NCBI RefSeq assembly: GCF_003052295.1
Contig: NZ_QBLC01000002.1
Coordinates: 62,001 to 126,000, forward strand
DNA length: 64,000 bases
Direction: 5' to 3'
From: Trichococcus paludicola
GTDB taxonomy: Bacteria; Bacillota; Bacilli; Lactobacillales; Aerococcaceae
Part shown: in pieces, positions 7,017 to 29,056 of the stretch
How positions within the stretch are numbered: position 1 is the first letter of the stretch
Layout of the letters: every line of letters starts with the position of its first letter
Made by a program: the position numbers and the translations under genes
Notes under the pieces: generated by a model
The model's input: the letters and a program-made list of their open reading frames with translations, nothing else
Databases searched by the model: none
Told to the model about the DNA's origin: nothing

Positions 7017-7045
7017 TTGACAGGTTGTATAAAATTTTATATAGT
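7017..7045 (+). promoter_or_regulatory. Promoter of the fatty acid synthesis operon
   Basis: TTGACA (7017-7022), a 17-base spacer, then TATAGT (7040-7045). The predicted start is near 7052. The -10 and start point are overlapped by the FabT-type operators, which fits direct repression. Confidence 0.85.
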
Positions 7046-7090
7046 TTGAAAGTCGAAAGGTTTGAACATCAAACTATTTTGACCTTCAAA
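7045..7090 (+). promoter_or_regulatory. Three tandem FabT-type operators
   Basis: Three copies of the TTTGA-N3-TCAAA palindrome used by the MarR-family repressor FabT: TTTGAAAGTCGAA (7045-7057, one mismatch), TTTGAACATCAAA (7061-7073, perfect) and TTTGACCTTCAAA (7078-7090, perfect). Centres are 16-17 bases apart. They cover the -10, the start point and the early leader of the operon. Confidence 0.85.
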
Positions 7091-7132
7091 CTAATGTGGT
7101 TTGATTGGGCATCGAAAGGAGGAGAGCTATCT

Positions 7133-7594
7133 TTGGATCATTCCATAGATAAAATTAACTCTTATCTCGTAGCTGTCTTCAATGAAGTGTTGGATATCGA
7201 AGAGCGTGCTTTGCGTGTCAGCACATTTTCTGATTTATCCATCAAGGAGATGCACACTGTCGAGGCAATCGGCATGTATCAAACTCATACAACTTCAGAA
7301 GTAGCAAAAAAATTGAACATAACTGCGGGAACTTTAACGGTGGCCATAAACGCTCTGGTAAAAAAGGGGTATGTCGAACGCATTCGGATGGAGAAAGACC
7401 GCAGAGTCGTAAAACTAGGATTAACCAAAAAAGGACGCTTATTGTATCGTCTTCATGATAAGTTCCATAGAGAGATGGTAAAGAATACCATTCGCGATAT
7501 GGAAGATCAGGAAGTGAAAGTTTTGCTGAAAGGCCTAAACAATCTTCACGGTTTCTTATTTGGGTTAGTTCAAAATATCAAGGAACAGGGTTGA
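7133..7594 (+). CDS. fabT: MarR-family fatty acid synthesis repressor FabT
   Basis: 153-aa winged-helix regulator of the MarR family. It represses fatty acid synthesis genes when long-chain acyl-ACP is available. Visible features are the dimerisation helix (INSYLVAVFNEVLDIEERALR), the recognition helix region (TTSEVAKKLNITAGTLTVAINALVKKGYVER) and the wing (RMEKDRRVVKLGLTKKG). The start is TTG at 7133, 10 bases after AAAGGAGG (7115-7122). Upstream in-frame codons would run through the operators. This gives the usual FabT length. It is the first gene of its own operon, so it is autoregulated through the three palindromes at 7045-7090. It ends one base into fabH (TGATG). Confidence 0.93.
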   Translation: MDHSIDKINSYLVAVFNEVLDIEERALRVSTFSDLSIKEMHTVEAIGMYQTHTTSEVAKKLNITAGTLTVAINALVKKGYVERIRMEKDRRVVKLGLTKKGRLLYRLHDKFHREMVKNTIRDMEDQEVKVLLKGLNNLHGFLFGLVQNIKEQG

Positions 7595-8577
7595 TGGAAT
7601 TGGGTTCAAAAATTAGCGCAACAGGTCACTATCTTCCTGAACAGATCATCACGAACGATGATCTGTCTAAAATCATGGACACGAGTGATGAGTGGATCAG
7701 CAAAAGGACAGGCATTCGCAGTAGACACATTTCGAAGAATGAGAATACTTCTGATCTGTCAAGCAAAGCGGCCCTAAGAATTTTGCAAAACGGCAACATC
7801 ACTGCAGACCAACTGGACTTCATTATAGTAGCAACAATGACGCCGGATGCTCTTAGCCCATCGACAGCTTGCTTAGTGCAAGAACAGATAGGTGCAGTAA
7901 ATGCTTTCTGTTTCGACATCAATGCAGCATGTTCCGGCTTTGTCTATGCATTGTCCACCGGCCTCCATATGATGCAGAGCGGTCTCTATCAATATGGCAT
8001 GATCATCGGGGCTGAGACAATGTCCAAAGTCGTCAACTGGGAAGACCGTTCTACGGCTGTCCTGTTCGGGGATGGCGCAGGCGGCGTGTTGTTGGAACGA
8101 ACGGAAGATGATTGCTTCGTTGCAGAAGCGATCCATTCTGATGGTGGACGCCATATGGCATTAGTGGCGAACACAATGAAAGTAGAAAACCCGTATGGAG
8201 ACTCCTCTCAGGAGGATCAAGCTTTCCTTACGATGGATGGCAGAGCCATCTTCGATTTTGCAATCCGCAGTGTGCCAAGCGTCATACGCGAAGTGATGGA
8301 GAAAGGAAATCTTTCTGACGGCGATCTGAAGAAGATTTTGGCTCATCAAGCGAATGTGCGCTTATTGGAGGCAATCAGCAAAAAAGTGAAATTGCCATTT
8401 TCATTGTTTGCCACAAACATTGCGGAAACGGGCAACACCTCAGCAGCAAGCATTCCGATACTGTTGGATCAGCTTGTTCAAACCAAGGAAATTCAACTCG
8501 GCACCAAAGATAAGGTGCTGATGACAGGATTTGGTGGCGGCCTCACTTGGGGAGCCATCGTAGTATCATTAAACTAA
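7594..8577 (+). CDS. fabH: Beta-ketoacyl-ACP synthase III FabH
   Basis: Starts type II fatty acid synthesis by condensing acyl-CoA with malonyl-ACP. The 327-aa product carries the Cys-His-Asn triad: Cys in [13 protein letters not shown] (~112), His in [13 protein letters not shown] (~247) and Asn in [13 protein letters not shown] (~277). The C-terminal [11 protein letters not shown] loop is typical of the family. The ATG at 7594 overlaps the fabT stop by one base. An alternative TTG sits one codon earlier. It is co-transcribed with the rest of the fab-acc cluster. Confidence 0.97.
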
Positions 8578-8602
8578 AAAAAAATATTTGGAGGAATTTA
8601 TT

Positions 8603-8830
8603 ATGACATTCGAAAAAATCAAAGCAATCATCGTGGACCAATTGGACAAGGAAGAATCAGAAGTACAATTATTAACTAACTTCAGAGAAGACTTGGACGC
8701 AGACAGCCTGGACTTATTCCAAATCATCAATGACATCGAAGACGAATTTGACATCAAAATCGAATCAGACGAAGGCATCAACACCGTTGAAGATTTAGTT
8801 AAATACGTTGACGCTCAATTAGCAGAATAA
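8603..8830 (+). CDS. acpP: Acyl carrier protein
   Basis: 75-aa acidic helical carrier of growing acyl chains. The phosphopantetheine attachment serine is Ser35 in [13 protein letters not shown]. The LFQII helix II, in place of the common VELVM, matches the streptococcal-type AcpP associated with FabK systems. The start is ATG 8603 behind TTTGGAGGAA. The track-like earlier TTG (8588) would lie inside the ribosome site. It sits between fabH and fabK, as in streptococci. Confidence 0.97.
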
Positions 8831-8855
8831 GCAGTAAAAGGAAAGTAGGCCTTGT

Positions 8856-9815
8856 ATGAAGTCAGAATTATGTGAATTATTAGGCATCCAATATCCAATC
8901 ATTCAAGGAGCAATGGCGTGGGTAGCGGATGCTGATTTGGCAAGTGCCGTTTCCAATGCTGGTGGGCTTGGTCTTATAGGGACAGGACATGATAGTGTGG
9001 ATGTAGCGAAGGAAAAAATTTCCAAAATGAAAGCATTGACGGATAAACCTTTTGGCGTAAACATCATGCTTTTGAATCCGCAGGTCGATGCTGTTGTTGA
9101 AGCAGTGATCGCTTCTGGCGTTAAGGTTGTCACAACCGGTGCCGGAAGCCCAGCCCGTTTTATGAGCCAATTCAAAGAAGCAGGCATCACGGTCATCCCG
9201 GTTGTTGCTTCCGTTGCTTTAGCGAGAAGAATGGAAAAAGACGGCGCGCACGCTGTCGTTGTCGAAGGCATGGAATCCGGTGGTCACATCGGAAGAACAA
9301 CGACAATTGCCCTGGTTCCTCAGGTTGTCGATGCCGTGTCGATTCCAGTCATCGCTGCAGGCGGTATTGGTGATGGACGTGGGATGGCAGCTGCTTTCAT
9401 GTTGGGCGCATCTGCTGTTCAAGTTGGGACCCGTTTTGTTGTTGCCAAAGAATCCAATGCACATCAAAATTTCAAGAATGCCATCCTTAAAGCGAAAGAC
9501 ATCGACACAGTCATTACCGGTCAGATTACCGGACATCCTGTTCGTGTGTTGCGCAATAAATTGACCAGAGAATATCTGCAAGTCGAGAAAGAAGAGACGA
9601 GCAAGGAAAATCCGGACTTCGCAAAACTTGAAGAAATGGGCAAAGGCGCTCTGAGAAGAGCGACTGTCGATGGTGATAAAGACTACGGTTCGATGATGGC
9701 CGGCCAGATTGCTGGTTTGATTTCGAAGGAACAGACATGTCACGATATCATACAAGAGTATATGACGGAATGCAAAGAAGTTATCTTGGCCCAAGCAAAA
9801 TTGTGGGCTGAGTAA
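8856..9815 (+). CDS. fabK: Enoyl-ACP reductase II FabK (FMN-dependent)
   Basis: 319-aa flavoprotein of the nitronate monooxygenase/FabK TIM-barrel family. It reduces trans-2-enoyl-ACP with NAD(P)H. Visible segments: YPIIQGAMAWVADADLASAVSNAGGLG at the N-terminus (FMN-binding), GMESGGHIGR (~142-151) and PVIAAGGIGDGRGMAAAFMLGASAVQVGTRF (FMN phosphate). No fabI is present in the operon, so this is the local enoyl reductase. FabK enzymes are naturally insensitive to triclosan, which is established for the family and not tested here. Confidence 0.96.
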   Translation: MKSELCELLGIQYPIIQGAMAWVADADLASAVSNAGGLGLIGTGHDSVDVAKEKISKMKALTDKPFGVNIMLLNPQVDAVVEAVIASGVKVVTTGAGSPARFMSQFKEAGITVIPVVASVALARRMEKDGAHAVVVEGMESGGHIGRTTTIALVPQVVDAVSIPVIAAGGIGDGRGMAAAFMLGASAVQVGTRFVVAKESNAHQNFKNAILKAKDIDTVITGQITGHPVRVLRNKLTREYLQVEKEETSKENPDFAKLEEMGKGALRRATVDGDKDYGSMMAGQIAGLISKEQTCHDIIQEYMTECKEVILAQAKLWAE

Positions 9816-9836
9816 CAAATTTATAGAGGTGAAATA

Positions 9837-10763
9837 ATGGCAACAGCTTTTGTCTATAGTGGTCAAGGTGCGCAATATTTCGGAATGGGTCAAGAACTTT
9901 ATAACGAGTATGCCGTTGTGCGCACTGTTTTTGATGAGGCTTCAGCAACGCTTGGTTACGATGTTGCAGAATTATGTTTCCAAGAGAATGACAAGCTTCA
10001 TTTAACTGAATATACACAACCAGCAATCTTAACGGTTAGCTACGCCCTTGATCAATTACTAGCTGAAAAGGGAATTCAGCCAGATTTTGTTGCAGGATTG
10101 AGCCTCGGAGAATATACAGCACTGGTGAAAGCCAATGCTTTTTCTTTTAATGAGGCTATTTCGCTCGTAGCGAAACGCGGCAAATACATGAGTGAGGCAG
10201 TGCCGGCCGGCCGTGGCAAAATGGCCGCCGTCATGAATGCGGAACGCTCCGTGATCGAAGAATCTTGCCGGGAAGCAAGCGAGACCGCTTATGTCGCGCC
10301 TGCCAACTACAATATGCCGACGCAGATCGTCATCGGCGGGGAAATCGAAGGCGTTAATAAAGCCATCGAAATCCTTGAGTCCAAAGGCGTGAAACGCATC
10401 ATCCCGTTGAATGTCAGCGGTCCTTTCCATACAGCTCTGTTGCATCCTGCAGCAGAAAAGTTGGAAGTGGCTTTGGCTGAGGTGAACGTGGATGAACCGA
10501 AGATACCTGTCGTCGGCAATACCGAAGCGACCATCGTAGCAAGGGATGCCATCAAGGGTCTGCTGGTGCGTCAGATCGAATCGCCGGTATTATGGGAAGA
10601 CAGCGTCCGCAAGCTGGTTGAACTGGGTGTGGACACCTTCGTGGAAGTCGGCCCAGGCACGACTTTAAGCAAATTCATCAAAAAAATCAACAAAGAGGTC
10701 GCTGTATATAATGTGGAGGATTTGAAATCCCTCACGAAGACCCTTGAAGCATTGCAAAAATAA
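9837..10763 (+). CDS. fabD: Malonyl-CoA:ACP transacylase FabD
   Basis: 308 aa. It loads malonyl groups onto ACP. The N-terminal FVYSGQGAQYFGMG (oxyanion-hole Gln), the nucleophile elbow AGLSLGEYTAL (Ser ~90) and the catalytic His in VSGPFHTALL (~200) are all present, with VEVGPGTTLSKF at the C-terminus. The ATG start follows AGAGGTGAAATA. It is part of the fab operon, 21 bases after fabK. Confidence 0.97.
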   Translation: MATAFVYSGQGAQYFGMGQELYNEYAVVRTVFDEASATLGYDVAELCFQENDKLHLTEYTQPAILTVSYALDQLLAEKGIQPDFVAGLSLGEYTALVKANAFSFNEAISLVAKRGKYMSEAVPAGRGKMAAVMNAERSVIEESCREASETAYVAPANYNMPTQIVIGGEIEGVNKAIEILESKGVKRIIPLNVSGPFHTALLHPAAEKLEVALAEVNVDEPKIPVVGNTEATIVARDAIKGLLVRQIESPVLWEDSVRKLVELGVDTFVEVGPGTTLSKFIKKINKEVAVYNVEDLKSLTKTLEALQK

Positions 10764-10792
10764 GTAGATCAGACAAGAAAAGAGGGATAGTC

Positions 10793-11524
10793 TTGGATTT
10801 AAAAGGAAAGACGGTCATCGTCACTGGTAGTTCAAGAGGAATCGGGGAAGCCATCGCTGAAGCATATGCGAAACGTGGAGCCAATATCGTTCTGAACGCA
10901 CGCAAACCGATTGCTGAAGAAAAAATTGCGCATCTGGAATCCTACGGCGTCACTGTCAAAACACTCTTAGGTGACGTCAGCGATTTTCAGACTGCCAAAG
11001 AAATCGTCAGCCAAGCCAAAGAACTGTTCGGTTCCGTTGATGTTTTGGTTAACAATGCAGGGATCACCCGCGACAAATTGATCATGCGCATGGATGAAGA
11101 GGATTTCGATGCCACTTATCAAGTGAATCTGAAGGGAACCTTCAATATGATCCGCCACGCTTTGCCGCTTATGCTGAAGCAAAGAGCCGGCAGCATCATC
11201 AATATCTCAAGCGTCGTCGGCGAAACCGGAAATACAGGGCAGGCCAACTATGCTGCCAGCAAAGCCGGAATCATCGGATTGACGAAATCTGTCGCCCGTG
11301 AAGCTGCAACAAGAGGCATTACTTGCAATGCCATTGCTCCAGGATTCATCGAAACGGAAATGACGGATGTTCTTTCAGAGAAGATTCAGGAACAAATGTT
11401 GACGCAAATCCCATTGAAACGATTTGGAAAAGCCGAAGAAGTGGCAAACACTGCTGTCTTCTTAAGTGAGAATACTTACATCACCGGCCAGACCATCAGT
11501 GTCAATGGCGGAATGTACATGTAA
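10793..11524 (+). CDS. fabG: 3-oxoacyl-ACP reductase FabG
   Basis: 243-aa classical short-chain dehydrogenase that reduces 3-ketoacyl-ACP with NADPH. It has the Rossmann motif TGSSRGIGEAIA (~10-21), NNAGITRD (~86), catalytic Ser in INISSVVG (~138) and YAASKAG (~151-157). The start codon is TTG at 10793, with AGAGGGATAG just upstream. It lies between fabD and fabF in the usual order. Confidence 0.97.
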   Translation: MDLKGKTVIVTGSSRGIGEAIAEAYAKRGANIVLNARKPIAEEKIAHLESYGVTVKTLLGDVSDFQTAKEIVSQAKELFGSVDVLVNNAGITRDKLIMRMDEEDFDATYQVNLKGTFNMIRHALPLMLKQRAGSIINISSVVGETGNTGQANYAASKAGIIGLTKSVAREAATRGITCNAIAPGFIETEMTDVLSEKIQEQMLTQIPLKRFGKAEEVANTAVFLSENTYITGQTISVNGGMYM

Positions 11525-11539
11525 GACAGGAGGATAAAT

Positions 11540-12775
11540 ATGAATCGCGTTGTAATTACAGGTATGGGTGCTATCACACCTTTAGGAAATACAGTCACTG
11601 AATATTGGGACGGCATCAAAAACGGTAAAAACGGCATTGCTGCCATAACTAATTTTGATGCATCCGAAACGGGCATTTCTGTCGCAGGCGAAGTGAAAGA
11701 CTTCGATGCGACCTTATATATGGACCGCAAAGAGTACAAGCGTATGGATCTGTTTTCGCAATACGCGGTAGCAGCCTCCGCTCAAGCCGTTGAGCAAAGC
11801 GGTATCGATATGGAGAAAATCGATGCGGATCGTTTTGGCGTTACCATCGGCTCTGGTGTCGGCGGATTCATCACAATGGAATCCGGCATCATCAAAATGC
11901 ACGAAAAAGGACCGAAACGCGTACCGCCTATGTTCGTACCGATGGCGATCGGAAACATGGCGGCAGGGAATACTGCCATCAAATTCGGAGCAAAAGGACC
12001 GAGCATGGACATTGTCACTGCTTGTGCTTCCGCGACAAACTCAATCGGAGAAGCTTTCCGCAGCATCAAACATGGTTACGCAGACCTGATGCTTGCAGGT
12101 GGAGCAGAAGCAACGGTCTGTGAAATCGGCATCGCTGGTTTTGCGGCACTGACTGCTTTGTCCACAAGCACTGATCCAGATCGCGCTTCCATTCCTTTCG
12201 ATAAAGAAAGAAATGGTTTTGTAATGGGTGAAGGAGCCGGCATCTTGATGCTTGAAAATCTTGATCACGCATTGGAACGCGGCGCAAATATCTTGGGTGA
12301 AGTTGTCGGATATGGTGTTACTTGTGATGCTTACCATATGACTGCTCCATCAGCGGATGGCAGCGGAGCTGGCAAAGCGATGCTTCAAGCTATGAAAGAA
12401 GCGGGCATCACTCCGGCACAAGTTGATTACATCAACGCTCACGGAACGAGCACGGCAGCAAACGATTCAGGCGAAACGGCTGCCATCAAATACGCTTTCG
12501 GCGAAGAAGCATACAAAGTCGCTATCTCAAGCACAAAGAGCATGACGGGGCATCTATTGGGCGCTGCCGGAGGTATCGAAGCGGTAGTCTGCGTTAAAGC
12601 CATTCAGGACGACTTCCTGCCGCCAACAATCGGGTTCCAAGTGGCTGACGAAGGCTGTGATTTGGACTACATCCCGAACGTCGGTCGTGAAAAAGAAGTC
12701 ACTTACACATTGAGCAACTCTTTGGGCTTCGGCGGCCATAATGCCGTACTATGTTTCAAAAAATGGGAGGCTTAA
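11540..12775 (+). CDS. fabF: Beta-ketoacyl-ACP synthase II FabF
   Basis: 411-aa elongating condensing enzyme. The catalytic Cys is in DIVTACASATNSIGEAF (~164), and the two histidines are in NAHGTSTAANDSGE (~304) and SMTGHLLGAAGG (~341). The C-terminal NSLGFGGHNAVLCF is also typical. A strong AGGAGG ribosome site precedes the ATG. The last codons carry the GGGAGG site for accB, which starts 3 bases after the stop. Confidence 0.98.
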   Translation: MNRVVITGMGAITPLGNTVTEYWDGIKNGKNGIAAITNFDASETGISVAGEVKDFDATLYMDRKEYKRMDLFSQYAVAASAQAVEQSGIDMEKIDADRFGVTIGSGVGGFITMESGIIKMHEKGPKRVPPMFVPMAIGNMAAGNTAIKFGAKGPSMDIVTACASATNSIGEAFRSIKHGYADLMLAGGAEATVCEIGIAGFAALTALSTSTDPDRASIPFDKERNGFVMGEGAGILMLENLDHALERGANILGEVVGYGVTCDAYHMTAPSADGSGAGKAMLQAMKEAGITPAQVDYINAHGTSTAANDSGETAAIKYAFGEEAYKVAISSTKSMTGHLLGAAGGIEAVVCVKAIQDDFLPPTIGFQVADEGCDLDYIPNVGREKEVTYTLSNSLGFGGHNAVLCFKKWEA

Positions 12776-12778
12776 TAC

Positions 12779-13240
12779 GTGAATATTGAAGATGTAAAAA
12801 GCCTCATTTCCTTGATCGATGAATCAACCTTGACTGAATTGCATTATCAGACAGGCGACTTTCAACTTTTGTTGTCCAAGAATAAGTCGGTCCAATCGAA
12901 GCAACCGTCAAACGATAGCATTCCGGCAGCAGCTCCAACTCCAGCAGTGACTGCTCCGGTCCAAAACATCAAAGAAGCCGTTTCTGAAGCGACTGCGAAA
13001 AAAGAAGGACAGATCATTACTTCTCCGATTGTCGGCGTTGTTTACCTTTCACCGACTCCGGATGCGAAACCGTATGCCACTAAAGGCCAAATCATCGCTA
13101 AAGGCGATGTAGTCTGCTTGGTGGAAGCAATGAAACTTATGAATGAAATCAAAAGCGAATTCGATGGGGAAATCGTTGAAGTGTTGGTCGAAAATGAACA
13201 AATCGTTGAATACAACCAACCGCTGTTCCGCATCGTCTAA
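12779..13240 (+). CDS. accB: Biotin carboxyl carrier protein AccB
   Basis: 153-aa biotin-carrying subunit of acetyl-CoA carboxylase. The N-terminal region is followed by an Ala/Pro-rich mobile linker (residues ~45-75). The C-terminal biotinyl domain has the target lysine in LVEAMKLMNEI (~120). The start is GTG at 12779. It sits between fabF and fabZ, as in streptococci. Confidence 0.96.
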   Translation: MNIEDVKSLISLIDESTLTELHYQTGDFQLLLSKNKSVQSKQPSNDSIPAAAPTPAVTAPVQNIKEAVSEATAKKEGQIITSPIVGVVYLSPTPDAKPYATKGQIIAKGDVVCLVEAMKLMNEIKSEFDGEIVEVLVENEQIVEYNQPLFRIV

Positions 13241-13258
13241 AAAAAGGAGACTATTAAA

Positions 13259-13690
13259 ATGAGTTTATTAAGCGCACAAGAAGTTATGGCTATCATCCCG
13301 AACCGCTACCCAATTTTCTTCATCGACAAAGTTGAAGAGTTGACACCAGGCGAGCACATCGTCTGCTACAAAAACGTTACAATCAACGAGCCTTTCTTCC
13401 AAGGGCATTTCCCAGGCGAACCAGTAATGCCAGGCGTATTGATCGTTGAAGCATTGGCTCAAGCAGGATCTATCCCATTGTTGACATTACCGGATTTCGA
13501 AGGACAAACAGCTTACCTAGGCGGATTGAATAAAGTCAAATTCCGTCAAAAAGTTGTTCCTGGCGATGTTTTGCGTCTGCAAGTGGATATCATCAAATTG
13601 AAAAAATTTGCGGGAATCGGTTATGGACAAGCTTTTGTCGGAGACAAAAAAGTTTGTGAAGTTGAAATGACCTTCATCATTGGTAGATAA
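13259..13690 (+). CDS. fabZ: 3-hydroxyacyl-ACP dehydratase FabZ
   Basis: 143-aa hot-dog fold dehydratase. The active-site His is in [25 protein letters not shown] (~48), with the partner Glu in the same segment. It removes water from 3-hydroxyacyl-ACP. Whether it can also isomerise, as FabN does in enterococci, cannot be told from the motif. No fabM or second fabZ is in this operon. A clean AAAGGAG site precedes the ATG. Confidence 0.95.
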
Positions 13691-13691
13691 C

Positions 13692-15068
13692 ATGTTTACG
13701 AAGGTATTGATCGCAAACAGAGGAGAAATTGCTGTAAGGATCATTCGTGCTTGTCATGAGTTAGGAATCCAGACGGTAGCGGTCTATTCTGAAGCTGACC
13801 GCGAAGCGTTGCATACACAGTTGGCCACTCAGGCCATTTGTATCGGTCCTGCCAAAGCGAGCGATTCCTATTTGAATATGACGAGCATTTTGAGTGCGGC
13901 AGTCGTTACAGGAGCCCAAGCCATCCATCCAGGTTTCGGGTTCCTCTCGGAAAACAGTGCATTCGCCACAATGTGTGAAGAAATGAATATCCGATTCATC
14001 GGACCTTCTTCCACCATCATCGACCTGATGGGCAACAAAGCAAACGCCCGCAAAACGATGATCGCAGCAGGCGTACCTGTCACTCCGGGAAGCGAAGGCT
14101 ACATCTCTTCATATGAAGATGCCGTGGCGCAAGCAGAGAAGATTGGTTATCCGGTCATCCTGAAAGCTGCCGCTGGTGGTGGCGGTAAAGGGATGCGGAA
14201 AGTCTACCAAGAAAATGGTCTGGAAGCAGCCTTCAACCAAGCGAAAGCTGAAGCAAAGGCTGCCTTCGGGGACGACCGCATGTATCTTGAAAAGATCATC
14301 ACACCGGCTCGTCATATTGAAGTGCAGATTTTAGGGGATTCATTCGGCAATGTCGTCCATCTGGGTGAGCGTGATTGCTCTCTCCAACGCAATCATCAGA
14401 AAGTGTTGGAAGAAAGTCCGTCCACGTTCATCACCGAAGCGACCCGCAAAGCCATGGGGGACGTCGCCATCCGAGCGGCTAAACATGTTGGCTACACGAA
14501 TGCAGGCACTATCGAATTCCTTGTCGACACGGAACAGCGTTTCTATTTCATGGAAATGAACACGCGTATCCAAGTGGAGCACCCGGTAACCGAAATGGCG
14601 ACTGGCATCGATATCGTCAAGGAACAATTGCGCATCGCGAGCGGTGAGCCTTTGTCCTTTACGCAGGATGATGTTGCCATCACCGGTCACACTATCGAGT
14701 GCCGTATCAACGCTGAAAATCCGGCTTTGGGTTTCCGCCCTTCCTCCGGTAAAATCGACTACCTGTTCTTGCCAAGCGGCGGGAATGGACTGCGTGTGGA
14801 AAGCGCCATGTACGGCGGATATATGATTCCGCCATTCTATGACTCGATGATCGCCAAAATCATCACAAAAGGCGACGACAGAAGCGAAGCAATCGCTAAA
14901 ATGAGGCGTGCGCTTCAGGAACTGGTCATCGAAGGAGTCGACACGAACCAATTCTTCCAGGAAGATATTCTGCAGGATCCTAATTTCATTTCCGGAGATT
15001 ACGATACGGAATATCTTCAGAACGTGTTCCTGAAAACGTGGGCACCTGAAGAAGAGGAAAGTGTATAA
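13692..15068 (+). CDS. accC: Acetyl-CoA carboxylase, biotin carboxylase subunit AccC
   Basis: 458-aa ATP-grasp enzyme that carboxylates biotin on AccB. It shows KVLIANRGEIAVRIIRA at the N-terminus, the ATP-grasp glycine loop LKAAAGGGGKGMRKV (~155-170), ERDCSLQRNHQKVLEE, MEMNTRIQVEHPVTE (~285-300) and RINAENP. The ATG at 13692 begins one base after the fabZ stop. An in-frame TTG at 13680 is an alternative. Length agrees with the family. Confidence 0.97.
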   Translation: MFTKVLIANRGEIAVRIIRACHELGIQTVAVYSEADREALHTQLATQAICIGPAKASDSYLNMTSILSAAVVTGAQAIHPGFGFLSENSAFATMCEEMNIRFIGPSSTIIDLMGNKANARKTMIAAGVPVTPGSEGYISSYEDAVAQAEKIGYPVILKAAAGGGGKGMRKVYQENGLEAAFNQAKAEAKAAFGDDRMYLEKIITPARHIEVQILGDSFGNVVHLGERDCSLQRNHQKVLEESPSTFITEATRKAMGDVAIRAAKHVGYTNAGTIEFLVDTEQRFYFMEMNTRIQVEHPVTEMATGIDIVKEQLRIASGEPLSFTQDDVAITGHTIECRINAENPALGFRPSSGKIDYLFLPSGGNGLRVESAMYGGYMIPPFYDSMIAKIITKGDDRSEAIAKMRRALQELVIEGVDTNQFFQEDILQDPNFISGDYDTEYLQNVFLKTWAPEEEESV

Positions 15069-15104
15069 ATCAATTAGTCAAGAAGTCACACTAGAGGTGA
15101 GGAA

Positions 15105-15980
15105 ATGAAATTATTTCGTAAGCGTCCTTACATTCCGATAGCTCAAGTTCCCGCTTCAAAAACAGACGATCAGAAACCGATCGTTCCTGAAGGCTTATGG
15201 GAAAAATGCCCGAATTGTCAAAAGACGATCTACAGCAAGGATTTGGGGAAAGATAAAGTATGCCCGCATTGTGCCTATAATTTCAGGATTTCGGCATATG
15301 AACGCATTTCCAATATCGTTGATGAAGGTTCTTTTGATGAATGGAACGCGCTCATGCCCGAAGAAAATCCATTGGCTTTTCCGGGGTATGAGAACAAACT
15401 GAAGATTGCCAAAGAAAAAACGGGACTTGACGAGGCGGTTGTAACCGGCGCGGCATTCATCAATAAGCATAAAGTTGCTTTGTGTGTGATGGATTCGAAC
15501 TTTATCATGGCAAGCATGGGGAAAGTTGTCGGTGAGAAGCTGACGCTCGCGTTTGAACGCGCAACGTCAGAAAAGCTCCCGATCATTGTCTTCACTGCTT
15601 CGGGCGGCGCCAGAATGCAAGAGGGAATCATGTCCTTGATGCAGATGGCGAAAGTCAGCGTTGCGGTCTCCAATCACAGTAAAGCAGGGCTGTTGTACAT
15701 CACAGTCTTGACCGATCCGACGACTGGGGGCGTAACGGCCAGCTTTGCGATGCAAGGGGATATTATCCTGGCTGAAACAGGCGCGACTGTCGGTTTCGCC
15801 GGCAAACGCGTCATTGAACAGACAATCAAAGCGAAATTGCCTGAAGGTTTCCAGACAGCTGAAAAGGTGCTGGAAAACGGCTTTATCGATAAAATTGTTG
15901 CCAGAAAAGATTTGAAAAGAGCATTGCAGCATCTATTGCTGCTGCATGCTCCTGCAGAAAAGGCGGGTGAAGTGCAGTGA
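15105..15980 (+). CDS. accD: Acetyl-CoA carboxylase carboxyltransferase subunit beta AccD
   Basis: 291 aa. The N-terminal zinc ribbon CPNC...CPHC (residues ~35-57) and the crotonase-like carboxyltransferase domain with TASGGARMQEGIMSLMQMAK and TDPTTGGVTASFAMQGD are present. It works with AccA to move CO2 from biotin to acetyl-CoA. A GAGGTGAGGAA site precedes the ATG. It overlaps accA by 4 bases (GTGA). Confidence 0.97.
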   Translation: MKLFRKRPYIPIAQVPASKTDDQKPIVPEGLWEKCPNCQKTIYSKDLGKDKVCPHCAYNFRISAYERISNIVDEGSFDEWNALMPEENPLAFPGYENKLKIAKEKTGLDEAVVTGAAFINKHKVALCVMDSNFIMASMGKVVGEKLTLAFERATSEKLPIIVFTASGGARMQEGIMSLMQMAKVSVAVSNHSKAGLLYITVLTDPTTGGVTASFAMQGDIILAETGATVGFAGKRVIEQTIKAKLPEGFQTAEKVLENGFIDKIVARKDLKRALQHLLLLHAPAEKAGEVQ

Positions 15981-16759
15981 AGGATGTCAAAGAAATTATC
16001 ACCTCTGCAAGAAGCATCTCCCGTCTGACGGCGACAGAAATGATCCATGCCATCTGTGAAGGTTTTGTTGAATTCCACGGCGACAGAAAATTTGGTGACG
16101 ACCCTGCTATCGTCGGTGGGATTGCATTGCTGGATGACATGCCGGTTACCGTCATCGGAACCCAAAAGGGCCACGATGTGACTGAGAATGTCTACCGGAA
16201 TTTTGGATCTCCGCATCCAGAAGGCTACCGGAAGGCGATTCGCTTGATGAAGCAGGCGGAGAAATTCAATCGTCCAATCGTCACTTTCATCAATACCTCA
16301 GGCGCTTTTTGCGATGTCGATTCTGAGGACCGAGGCATCGGTGAAGCAATCGCTGAATCGCTTTTAGTGATGAGTCAACTGACAGTTCCTTTCATCGCCA
16401 TCTTCATCGGCGAGGGAGGCAGCGGCGGTGCATTGGCGCTGGCGATGGGCAACGAGGTTTGGATGTTGGAGAATACCATGTATTCTGTCCTATCCCCCGA
16501 AGGCTTCGCCTCGATTTTATGGAAGGATTCCTCGCGATCCGATGAAGCAGCCAAAGTAATGAAGTTGACGCCGGATGATCTTTTTTCATTGGACGTCATC
16601 GATAAAATCATTATGGAAACTCGCAGGAAAGTGGCCCGGAAATCGGATGATGTGATGCTGGAACTGAAGCGGGAATTAAGTGCTAAGCTGAAAGAGCTGA
16701 AGCAACTGACTCCAGCAGAATTGGTTGAGCAACGCCAAAAACGATTCCGTAATTATTGA
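15977..16759 (+). CDS. accA: Acetyl-CoA carboxylase carboxyltransferase subunit alpha AccA
   Basis: 260 aa, partner of AccD in the carboxyltransferase. It has GGIALLDDMPVTVIGTQKG, FINTSGAFCDVDSEDRGIGEAIA, FIGEGGSGGALALAMGNEV and YSVLSPEGFASILWKD. The start is GTG inside the accD stop region. It lacks the longer N-terminal helix of proteobacterial AccA (~320 aa), as is normal in lactic acid bacteria. It is the last gene of the operon, followed by a strong terminator. Confidence 0.97.
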   Translation: MKDVKEIITSARSISRLTATEMIHAICEGFVEFHGDRKFGDDPAIVGGIALLDDMPVTVIGTQKGHDVTENVYRNFGSPHPEGYRKAIRLMKQAEKFNRPIVTFINTSGAFCDVDSEDRGIGEAIAESLLVMSQLTVPFIAIFIGEGGSGGALALAMGNEVWMLENTMYSVLSPEGFASILWKDSSRSDEAAKVMKLTPDDLFSLDVIDKIIMETRRKVARKSDDVMLELKRELSAKLKELKQLTPAELVEQRQKRFRNY

Positions 16760-16776
16760 TTCAAGAACAGCTATGG

Positions 16777-16814
16777 ACCGCCCGCACAGCAGCAGTTGTG
16801 CGGGCGGTTTTTTT
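16777..16814 (+). terminator. Terminator of the fab-acc operon
   Basis: ACCGCCCGCACA (16777-16788) pairs perfectly with TGTGCGGGCGGT (16797-16808), followed by seven Ts. Confidence 0.96.
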
Positions 16815-16828
16815 CGCGTCCGCTTTTA

Positions 16829-16837
16829 TGATATAAT
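16829..16837 (+). promoter_or_regulatory. Extended -10 promoter for the TPR-like gene
   Basis: TGA-TATAAT (TATAAT at 16832-16837), an extended -10 that begins just after the fab-acc terminator. No good -35. Confidence 0.7.
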
Positions 16838-16875
16838 GACCTAACAGGAAATCAGCTTAGATTGGGGTGATGGAA

Positions 16876-17847
16876 ATGGGAGAAAAAATTGTTTTTCCAC
16901 TAAATTACGAGGGATACTTAAAAAAAGGACTATTGGCATTTGAAGAGGGGAATCTGCAGCTTGCGGAAGAATGGATCGGCAAGGCTGTTGCCATCAAAAA
17001 GGCAGACGATATCCTCCCGCTCTATCTCATGTTGCTGCAGGAGACCGATCAAGCAGAGAAGAGTCTGGAAATGATAACCGAAATGCGTCCGGATATTGCT
17101 TCCGCCATTTCGGTGGACGACATCGATTTCCTTTTCTTGAAAGGCTTGCTGCATTCCGGATCATTCGTCATGGCCCGCGAACAAATCGAAGCACGCAAAA
17201 ATACTTTTGGTCTGTCGATGGAACATCAATTTGCTTTGGAGCAATTGGAGGCTGAAGTCGAAAAAGTTGAACTTAAGACTTTGGAGAAGAAGCTGAAAAA
17301 AAGTTCAGAAATCCTCCAGGCCGAAAAAACCATAGATACGCAACCGTTCCACAAGCAACAACTCTACGCGCAACAATTGAAAGAATTGGAGAATGACCAA
17401 TTCGGCAAGATAGCGCAACGTTTGCTCATGAACAGCAATCTCCACCGGATGCTAAAGACAGAGATCATCCATCAATTTCTTGCACGCGGGCTCCATCCGA
17501 CGGTGACTGTCAGATTGGACGGAACCGTAGATAAATTGGATCTGGCTGGAGTGGTCCCATTGATCGACTCGAAAACGTACAAAGAAGGAATGGCATACAT
17601 CCAAGAAGAAATCGCCAATAAAAACCCGACTATGGCGGATGCCATGGAGAATGCCTTCTTCATGCAATTATCCCTCCTTTATCCGTTCGAACAAAGGACG
17701 ATCCCAGCCGTGAAGGAATGGTTGGAGGTGCTCTACCGCATTTACAACGGGACCGAATCGACGGGCGAACCAAGCGAAAAGAGCATCCGCGATGAAATCG
17801 AAAAATTGGAAAATAAGCTGGCTGATTTTTTTGGGTTTTTCGAATAA
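16876..17847 (+). CDS. Helical TPR-like protein of unknown function
   Basis: 323-aa soluble, acidic, almost entirely helical protein. The N-terminal part (YLKKGLLAFEEGNLQLAEEWIGKAV, in shorter pieces) looks like a tetratricopeptide repeat. A charged coiled-coil stretch lies around residues 110-175, and a conserved-looking C-terminal half contains KTEIIHQFLARGLHPTVTV. It resembles Firmicute TPR proteins sometimes labelled DUF3196, but I cannot confirm that. The start is ATG 16876 with GGGGTG 6 bases upstream. ATG 16870 is possible. It is a single-gene unit between the fab operon and the cold-shock gene. Confidence 0.75.
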   Translation: MGEKIVFPLNYEGYLKKGLLAFEEGNLQLAEEWIGKAVAIKKADDILPLYLMLLQETDQAEKSLEMITEMRPDIASAISVDDIDFLFLKGLLHSGSFVMAREQIEARKNTFGLSMEHQFALEQLEAEVEKVELKTLEKKLKKSSEILQAEKTIDTQPFHKQQLYAQQLKELENDQFGKIAQRLLMNSNLHRMLKTEIIHQFLARGLHPTVTVRLDGTVDKLDLAGVVPLIDSKTYKEGMAYIQEEIANKNPTMADAMENAFFMQLSLLYPFEQRTIPAVKEWLEVLYRIYNGTESTGEPSEKSIRDEIEKLENKLADFFGFFE

Positions 17848-28105: not shown

Positions 28106-29056
28106 ATGGAATGGAATGAAGTGAAGGTTGTGACTGCTACCGAAGCAGTTGAGGCTGTATCAAATATATTGATGGAGGCGGGTGCGAAAGGCGTCGCGAT
28201 AGATGACGAATTGGACTTCGTCAATCTGCAGGATGATGGGTTCGGACAGATAAAAGAGGAACGTGCGTTGCCTGAAGAAGGTCATGCAGTCTATATCATG
28301 GCTTATTATCCAAACAACGCAGGTTTCCAGGACACCGTGTTGTTCATCAAAGAGCAATTGGCGGAGCTGGAAAAAATTGATCTGAAAATCGGGAAAAATG
28401 AGATGCAGATCAACCAGGTGAAAGAAGAGGATTGGGAAAACTCCTGGAAAGAATATTTCCATCCGATCCGCTTGACGCGTTTTTTAACGATCGTACCTTA
28501 TTGGGAAGAATATACGCCTGAAGATGAAAAAGAAATGCTGATTCAGTTGGATCCGGGAATGGCCTTCGGAACCGGCACGCATCCTACGACGCGTCTGTCC
28601 ATCGAAGCGCTTGAAGCAGTGATGCGGGGCGGTGAAAAAGTGATCGATGTCGGAACCGGGTCAGGCGTGTTGAGCATCGCGGCCAAGGCAATGGGAGCGG
28701 ACACAGTCTATGCTTATGATATCGATGAAATCGCCACACGCGTTTCTAAAGAGAACATCGCTTATAATGCCTATGCTTCGGATGTGATCGTCAAAGAGAA
28801 CAACCTTTTGGTGGGGATTGCCGATCAGCAAGCGGACATCATCGTTGCAAATATACTGGCGGAGATTCTGCTGCTGTTGCTTCCCGATGCCTACAACAAC
28901 CTCAAGGATGATGGTTATTTTATCCTTTCGGGGATCATCGATTCTAAGAAAGAAGAGCTGATCGCAGCTTTGGTAAGCAATGGTTTTGAGATCGAGCAAG
29001 AAAAGCAAATGAAAGATTGGGTTTGCCTGATCTGCACTAAAAATCTGGAGGATTGA
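28106..29056 (+). CDS. prmA: Ribosomal protein L11 methyltransferase PrmA
   Basis: 316 aa. Trimethylates lysines and the N-terminus of ribosomal protein L11. The N-terminal L11-binding domain (residues ~1-100) precedes the methyltransferase domain with DPGMAFGTGTHPTTRL, motif I VIDVGTGSGVLSIAA (~180) and the NILAEILL motif (~250). The start is ATG 28106, 7 bases after GAAAGGTG. ATG 28100 is too close to that site. It is followed after 3 bases by rsmE, the usual pair. Confidence 0.95.
   Translation: MEWNEVKVVTATEAVEAVSNILMEAGAKGVAIDDELDFVNLQDDGFGQIKEERALPEEGHAVYIMAYYPNNAGFQDTVLFIKEQLAELEKIDLKIGKNEMQINQVKEEDWENSWKEYFHPIRLTRFLTIVPYWEEYTPEDEKEMLIQLDPGMAFGTGTHPTTRLSIEALEAVMRGGEKVIDVGTGSGVLSIAAKAMGADTVYAYDIDEIATRVSKENIAYNAYASDVIVKENNLLVGIADQQADIIVANILAEILLLLLPDAYNNLKDDGYFILSGIIDSKKEELIAALVSNGFEIEQEKQMKDWVCLICTKNLED

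Follow-up and report, generated by a model that had tools for sequence, protein, structure and literature searches.

The fatty acid synthesis (fab) operon of Trichococcus lies behind a promoter that carries three TTTGA-N3-TCAAA palindromes (boxes). The locus raises the question of whether the boxes are operators of the repressor FabT, whether three of them form the regulatory unit and whether all twelve genes of the operon depend on them. The locus was analysed in the window, meaning the whole 64-kb stretch of DNA, and compared with fabT leaders across the order.

Promoter, boxes and operon in the window

Each box was scored as the number of matches to the ten fixed positions of TTTGA-N3-TCAAA. 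As the initial annotation had stated, three such palindromes are present at spacings of 16–17 bases, two of them perfect (Table 1); measured start to start, box 2 follows box 1 by 16 bases and box 3 follows box 2 by 17. The promoter hexamers are separated by a 17-nt spacer and match 11 of 12 consensus positions in the consensus scan, the -35 and -10 consensus and the ribosome-binding motifs being general knowledge or those of the scanning program. The array was also said to cover the -10, the start point and the leader. This held, with overlap of the -10 limited to one T: box 1 spans the expected start point, and boxes 2 and 3 are situated in the leader.

Table 1. Features of the fab locus, in coordinates of the window. 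Box scores are matches to TTTGA-N3-TCAAA.
Feature	Position	Strand	Basis or remark
-35 hexamer TTGACA	7017-7022	+	consensus scan; unchanged in 13/13 Trichococcus
-10 hexamer TATAGT	7040-7045	+	final T is base 1 of box 1
Box 1 TTTGAAAGTCGAA	7045-7057	+	9/10, one mismatch
Box 2 TTTGAACATCAAA	7061-7073	+	10/10
Box 3 TTTGACCTTCAAA	7078-7090	+	10/10
fabT, MarR-family repressor FabT	7133-7594	+	TTG start; NF050133, 205.4 bits
fabH, acpP, fabK, fabD, fabG, fabF, accB, fabZ, accC, accD, accA (in this order)	7591-16759	+	ORFs, NCBIfam
acpP-fabK gap	8831-8855	+	25 nt; no box of at least 9/10

The product of fabT passes the cut-off of the NCBIfam FabT equivalog (200 bits) narrowly, and its closest solved relative is PDB 6jbx (150 bits), which we take to be pneumococcal FabT. 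Since this first gene of the operon passes the FabT cut-off, if narrowly, the three boxes are very probably FabT operators. The eleven genes behind fabT follow with short gaps or overlaps, the longest gap being 36 nt. A scan of box starts from 7091 to 16900 gave no box of at least 9/10, the best being five matches of 8/10, in agreement with the earlier observation that none lies before fabK or between the other genes. Because there is no box before fabK here, the twelve-gene operon plausibly hangs on this one array, as was first proposed from the sequence. With a FabT-family repressor as its first gene and a TTTGA-N3-TCAAA palindrome at its promoter, the locus belongs with the FabT-controlled fab operons. 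Its fabK lacks a FabT box, as in the Enterococcus type with a single control point; the second FabT box ahead of fabK that marks the Streptococcus type is absent. Behind accA, an ORF of 326 aa (16867-17847) had no NCBIfam match at 0.001.

When the 283-base leader was shuffled 20,000 times with dinucleotides preserved, no shuffle contained two exact boxes, three boxes of at least 9/10 or the array. The 64-kb window as a whole contained nine box matches when one mismatch was allowed, where 6.9 were expected and 23 of 100 shuffles reached nine, and two exact boxes against a shuffle mean of 0.39 and a shuffle maximum of 3; the next match with at most one mismatch after the array is at 28783. The former count was not significant, and enrichment of single boxes was dropped as an argument. 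Because single boxes in the window are near chance, it is their clustering on the promoter that is informative, and this clustering is not due to chance.

Conservation of the array within Trichococcus

The array was present in all 13 Trichococcus leaders, 12 of them with spacings of 16 and 17. In the exception (G009) the spacings are 16 and 16 and the boxes score 8, 10 and 8 of 10. Of the ten arm columns of each box, one varied among the 13 leaders in box 1, none in box 2 and six in box 3, the last figure being due in part to the shifted G009; without this genome the counts were 0, 0 and 2 of 10. In the leader behind the array 8 of 22 columns varied (12 Trichococcus), and variability relative to this stretch gave p = 0.004 for boxes 1 and 2 together and p = 0.44 for box 3. 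Box 3 scored 8 or 9 of 10 in four genomes (G007, G008, G009 and G010), and G007, G008 and G010 account for three single-base changes, each from A to G in the 3' arm. Across Trichococcus, boxes 1 and 2 are preserved; box 3 is a local, variable and less strictly preserved extra, no less variable than the leader that follows the array.

No box was found in the acp-fabK gap of the 12 census Trichococcus genomes in which fabK was found. Of ten named loci whose FabT shows at least 90% identity, nine carry the label Trichococcus and one Sedimentibacter; nine of the ten had no box in the 200 nt before fabK, the tenth ending short of that gene. The FabT of the Sedimentibacter-labelled locus (L046) is 99% identical to that of Trichococcus, and the label looks doubtful. 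So does the Clostridiales label of another locus (L054), whose FabT is 58% identical and which has the same 16-bp pair.

A probable two-box operator across the order

FabT was searched for in 60 relatives, 54 of which matched at 1e-3, and in 198 genomes of the order, of which 138 matched at 1e-20 and 60 had no match at that level. The census comprised 159 fabT leaders, namely all 138 of the order draw and 21 more among the 60 relatives; a first census covered 132 hand-picked leaders, and the remaining 27 were then added and the count repeated on 159. G215 was kept with a stop within the first 20 codons of the matched frame, as were G155, G114, G196 and G124, whose leaders may be misplaced because their FabT matches are partial.

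A pair was defined as two boxes exactly 16 bp apart, each of at least 8/10 and with a sum of at least 18. It was found in 119 of the 159 leaders: 31/35 in family f1, 17/17 in f2, 25/25 in f3, 21/22 in f6, 24/24 in f8, 1/10 in f9 and 0/26 in f4, the absence from f4 being threshold-dependent because a weaker 8 + 9 pair at 16 bp occurs in 3 of the 14 f4 leaders examined first. Family f4 is termed streptococcus-like because the FabT of G053 scores higher on PDB 6jbx than the Trichococcus protein does (220 against 150 bits), and a residue comparison found certain FabT residues that distinguish f4 from the other families. The initial annotation had taken the triple array as the unit; three boxes are indeed present in the window, but the unit in the order is two boxes 16 bp apart, and those at 7045 and 7061 form such an operator with the first box at the -10.

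The first 132 leaders contained 308 boxes of at least 9/10, whereas the reversed motif gave 6. In leaders other than those of Trichococcus, neighbouring boxes of this quality were 16 apart in 110 cases and 15, 17 or 18 apart in none, the next distances being 24 (once) and 29–31 (13 times). In 84 of the 119 pair leaders, the hexamer whose last base is the first T of box 1 has the form TATANT. When paired boxes 16 bp apart were sought with at most three mismatches, 52 of the 60 relatives matched, against 16 of 61 genomes (our own included) for the reversed pattern; among the matches listed, all pairs with at most one mismatch lay at fabT leaders or at the operon promoter of G025. On these counts the two-box arrangement with a 16-bp step is the rule in the order, and Trichococcus adds a third box.

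The downstream box was perfect in 117 of the 119 pairs and the -10 box in 95. This preference is weakened by the relatedness of the leaders: 24 of the 26 discordant ones favour the downstream box, and counted by genus they amount to ten for it and two against (p about 0.04 in a two-sided sign test, both worked out by hand).

Chains of three boxes, each of at least 9/10, occurred in 16 of the 159 leaders, namely 12 Trichococcus, G023 of the same family, G036 (f2), and G108 and G150 (f8). Extra boxes were also seen in other arrangements. In G020, G032, G082, G170 and G120 an extra exact box lies 29–31 bp before box 1 and reads TTTGACA..., containing or overlapping a -35-like TTGACA, which would be another way to add an operator. 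Eight f8 leaders (G049, G056, G063, G100, G136, G173, G187 and G201) have a third exact box about 40 nt before fabT, separate from the pair, and a TATACT precedes this box in G049 and G056, as if a second promoter there had a box of its own. Nine of the 17 f2 leaders (G051, G065, G072, G087, G094, G102, G131, G152 and G160) have an exact box 183–200 nt before fabT, approximately 110–116 bp upstream of the pair.

One rearranged locus (L219, G025:C171) separates the pair from fabT. Here fabT (11337-11756) comes after accA and closes the fab operon at its 3' end, and no box is present in its leader. The two paired boxes occupy 1847-1875 before fabH (9/10 and 10/10, 16 apart, with a weaker third box behind), and there is an additional box ahead of fabK. 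In G025, a single genome, the tandem operator is tied to the promoter of the operon rather than to fabT. This bears on whether the boxes serve a MarR-type regulator other than FabT, for which the further weak MarR matches in Trichococcus genomes (from about 3e-7) would provide candidates. Such a regulator is extremely unlikely, given that in most families examined the pair is found at the fab promoter, where it remains when fabT is relocated, that the adjacent gene in the window is FabT, and that FabT of Enterococcus faecalis binds a fabT promoter with such a palindrome according to the available text of PMC9083066.

Near-exclusion of the pair and an operator before fabK

The acp-fabK gap was scored for boxes of at least 9/10 in all loci except 32 that could not be scored for fabK (24 tandem loci, 22 of them f3, and 8 without the tandem). 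Among tandem loci with a scorable fabK, 94 lacked a gap box and one (G184) had one. Among those without the tandem, 27 had a gap box (26 f4 and G021 of f1) and 5 did not. The Fisher value for tandem against fabK box was 2e-21, but these genomes are related and the independent changes are few: f4 represents a single group and G021 another. In tandem loci with no fabK box the acp-fabK gap had a median of 36 nt, compared with 129 nt in the group with a fabK box. The presence of a gap box in 26 of 26 f4 leaders upholds the earlier remark that streptococcal loci have FabT sites at fabK as well, and a streptococcal fabK promoter is in print in the part of PMC13046290 available.

The choice of region matters for this result, because a scan of the 200 nt before fabK adds boxes upstream of the gap: in the first 132 leaders, boxes of at least 9/10 were also seen in 2 f1, 6 f2, 7 f6 and 1 f8 leaders, and restriction to the acp-fabK gap left just the 2 f1, the others lying upstream, in or before acp. 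Within the acp-fabK gap, the pair nearly excludes an operator before fabK.

Proposed mode of repression

The array probably serves as the operator through which FabT controls the fab operon, and it extends the two-box module usual in the order. FabT dimers, strengthened by acyl-ACP, would fill box 2 first, this perfect and most conserved box serving as the anchor. Box 1 would be filled second, on the opposite DNA face, since a step of 16 bp is about 1.5 helical turns and would place neighbouring dimers on opposite faces. With box 1 occupied, the start point and the end of the -10 would be covered and RNA polymerase blocked, and box 3 would be an extension, at which an adjacent dimer raises occupancy or lengthens the block. 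One array would then set the level of twelve genes as a single autoregulated control point, in which repression also limits FabT because fabT is on the same transcript.

Cooperative filling of boxes on opposite DNA faces is plausible from the spacing. The initial annotation had suggested that this spacing could make repression cooperative and graded. As described in the accessible portion of PMC5526998, the structure of the MarR protein Rv2887 places two dimers on nearly opposite faces of a 30-bp DNA, 15 bp each. Two MarR-type dimers of approximately 15 bp are the geometry implied by the 16-bp step; the regulator and ligand differ, and opposite-face binding here would follow from spacing only. 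FabT may instead bind the boxes independently, with the 16-bp step inherited or reflecting close packing, box 1 alone repressing, and boxes 2 and 3 raising local FabT or acting as a weak roadblock. We regard this as possible but rather doubtful. The step could indeed be inherited, f4 leaders manage with single boxes, and FabT binding and repression are described as weak, gel shifts needing a large excess of repressor (PMC13046290, in the part available). Independent binding is harder to reconcile with the absence of spacings of 15, 17 and 18 in the 110 neighbouring pairs outside Trichococcus and with better conservation of the downstream box than of the -10 box (117 against 95 of 119).

A further alternative is that box 3 or all the palindromes act in RNA, through hairpins in the 5' leader that influence how stable the fab mRNA is or how it is translated. 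In the leader RNA at 7052-7105, a nested hairpin is predicted around box 2 and a second one from the 3' arm of box 3 with a TTTGA at about 7101. The leader fold has a z of -2.67, with 2 of 200 shuffles as good, the nested hairpin recurs in 13/13 Trichococcus leaders and in G023, and the A to G changes of box 3 in G007, G008 and G010 would keep G-U pairs. Adjacent palindromes, however, yield hairpins by themselves, a pair of the second stem is broken in G006, and the mean z is -1.57 in the 13 Trichococcus and near zero in other two-box leaders (f2 -0.12, f3 +0.68, f6 -0.37). An RNA hairpin as the main function is retained only as a low-ranking alternative, and we consider a role in RNA very unlikely.

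Exact boxes occurred genome-wide at 13 places in our own assembly (63% complete; 2 for the reversed-pattern control) and at 14 and 16 places in two Trichococcus genomes that are 99% complete, for which the control gave 5 and 2. Two of the places in each of the three genomes are the array itself. On ORF maps inspected by eye, most of the others fall within coding sequence or stems resembling terminators, and a few look intergenic. No fatty-acid gene was recognized beside the other exact boxes on these maps, and a genome-wide regulon defined by exact boxes was rejected. The scan covered exact boxes only, and FabT may have further targets outside the fab operon.

Relation to known systems and significance

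A single FabT-controlled promoter for the same twelve-gene operon is already published for Enterococcus faecalis, and dependence of the whole operon on one promoter, plausible in Trichococcus, is not new. In the parts available of PMC9083066 and PMC13046290, the E. faecalis operon likewise has fabT first, one promoter with a FabT palindrome and no working fabK promoter, and acyl-ACP strengthens FabT, whose gene is on the transcript of the operon; in the former source, acyl-AcpB enhances binding and there is no binding at the fabK region. E. faecalis FabT differs in also controlling fabI/fabO, of which no counterpart was found here, none having been specifically sought; the comparison stops short of its box number and spacing, which PMC9083066 gives in a figure only. 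The Streptococcus pneumoniae locus shares FabT, palindromic boxes and gene order, and differs in a second FabT-controlled promoter before fabK (PMC13046290 and PMC4996995, each available in part); the f4 leaders of the present census have single boxes at fabT.

A literature search whose reach stopped short of several FabT papers and of Figure 3B of PMC9083066 gave no account of FabT boxes paired at a fixed distance, and the 16-bp pair may already be known. Literature on Trichococcus and fatty acid biosynthesis consisted of community studies only, judged by title. The Trichococcus array is a probable FabT operator of a known kind, represented here by a variant with three boxes. More is gained from the finding that the 16-bp pair is conserved and hardly ever occurs together with an operator ahead of fabK.

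We tentatively propose, with somewhat less than even confidence, two alternative FabT layouts: in most families examined, one promoter carries a fixed operator for two dimers, while in f4, and separately in G021, single boxes are spread over the promoters of fabT and fabK. The tandem would be a cooperative switch that offsets weak single-box binding, and the third dimer in Trichococcus would tighten its sole point of fatty-acid control. A strict pair in most families examined, missing where a fabK operator sits, suggests that operator layout, and not the repressor alone, sets the response. Leaders with one, two and three boxes offer a natural series for testing operator number and spacing in a feedback loop in which the repressor and the enzymes that make its ligand share one transcript.
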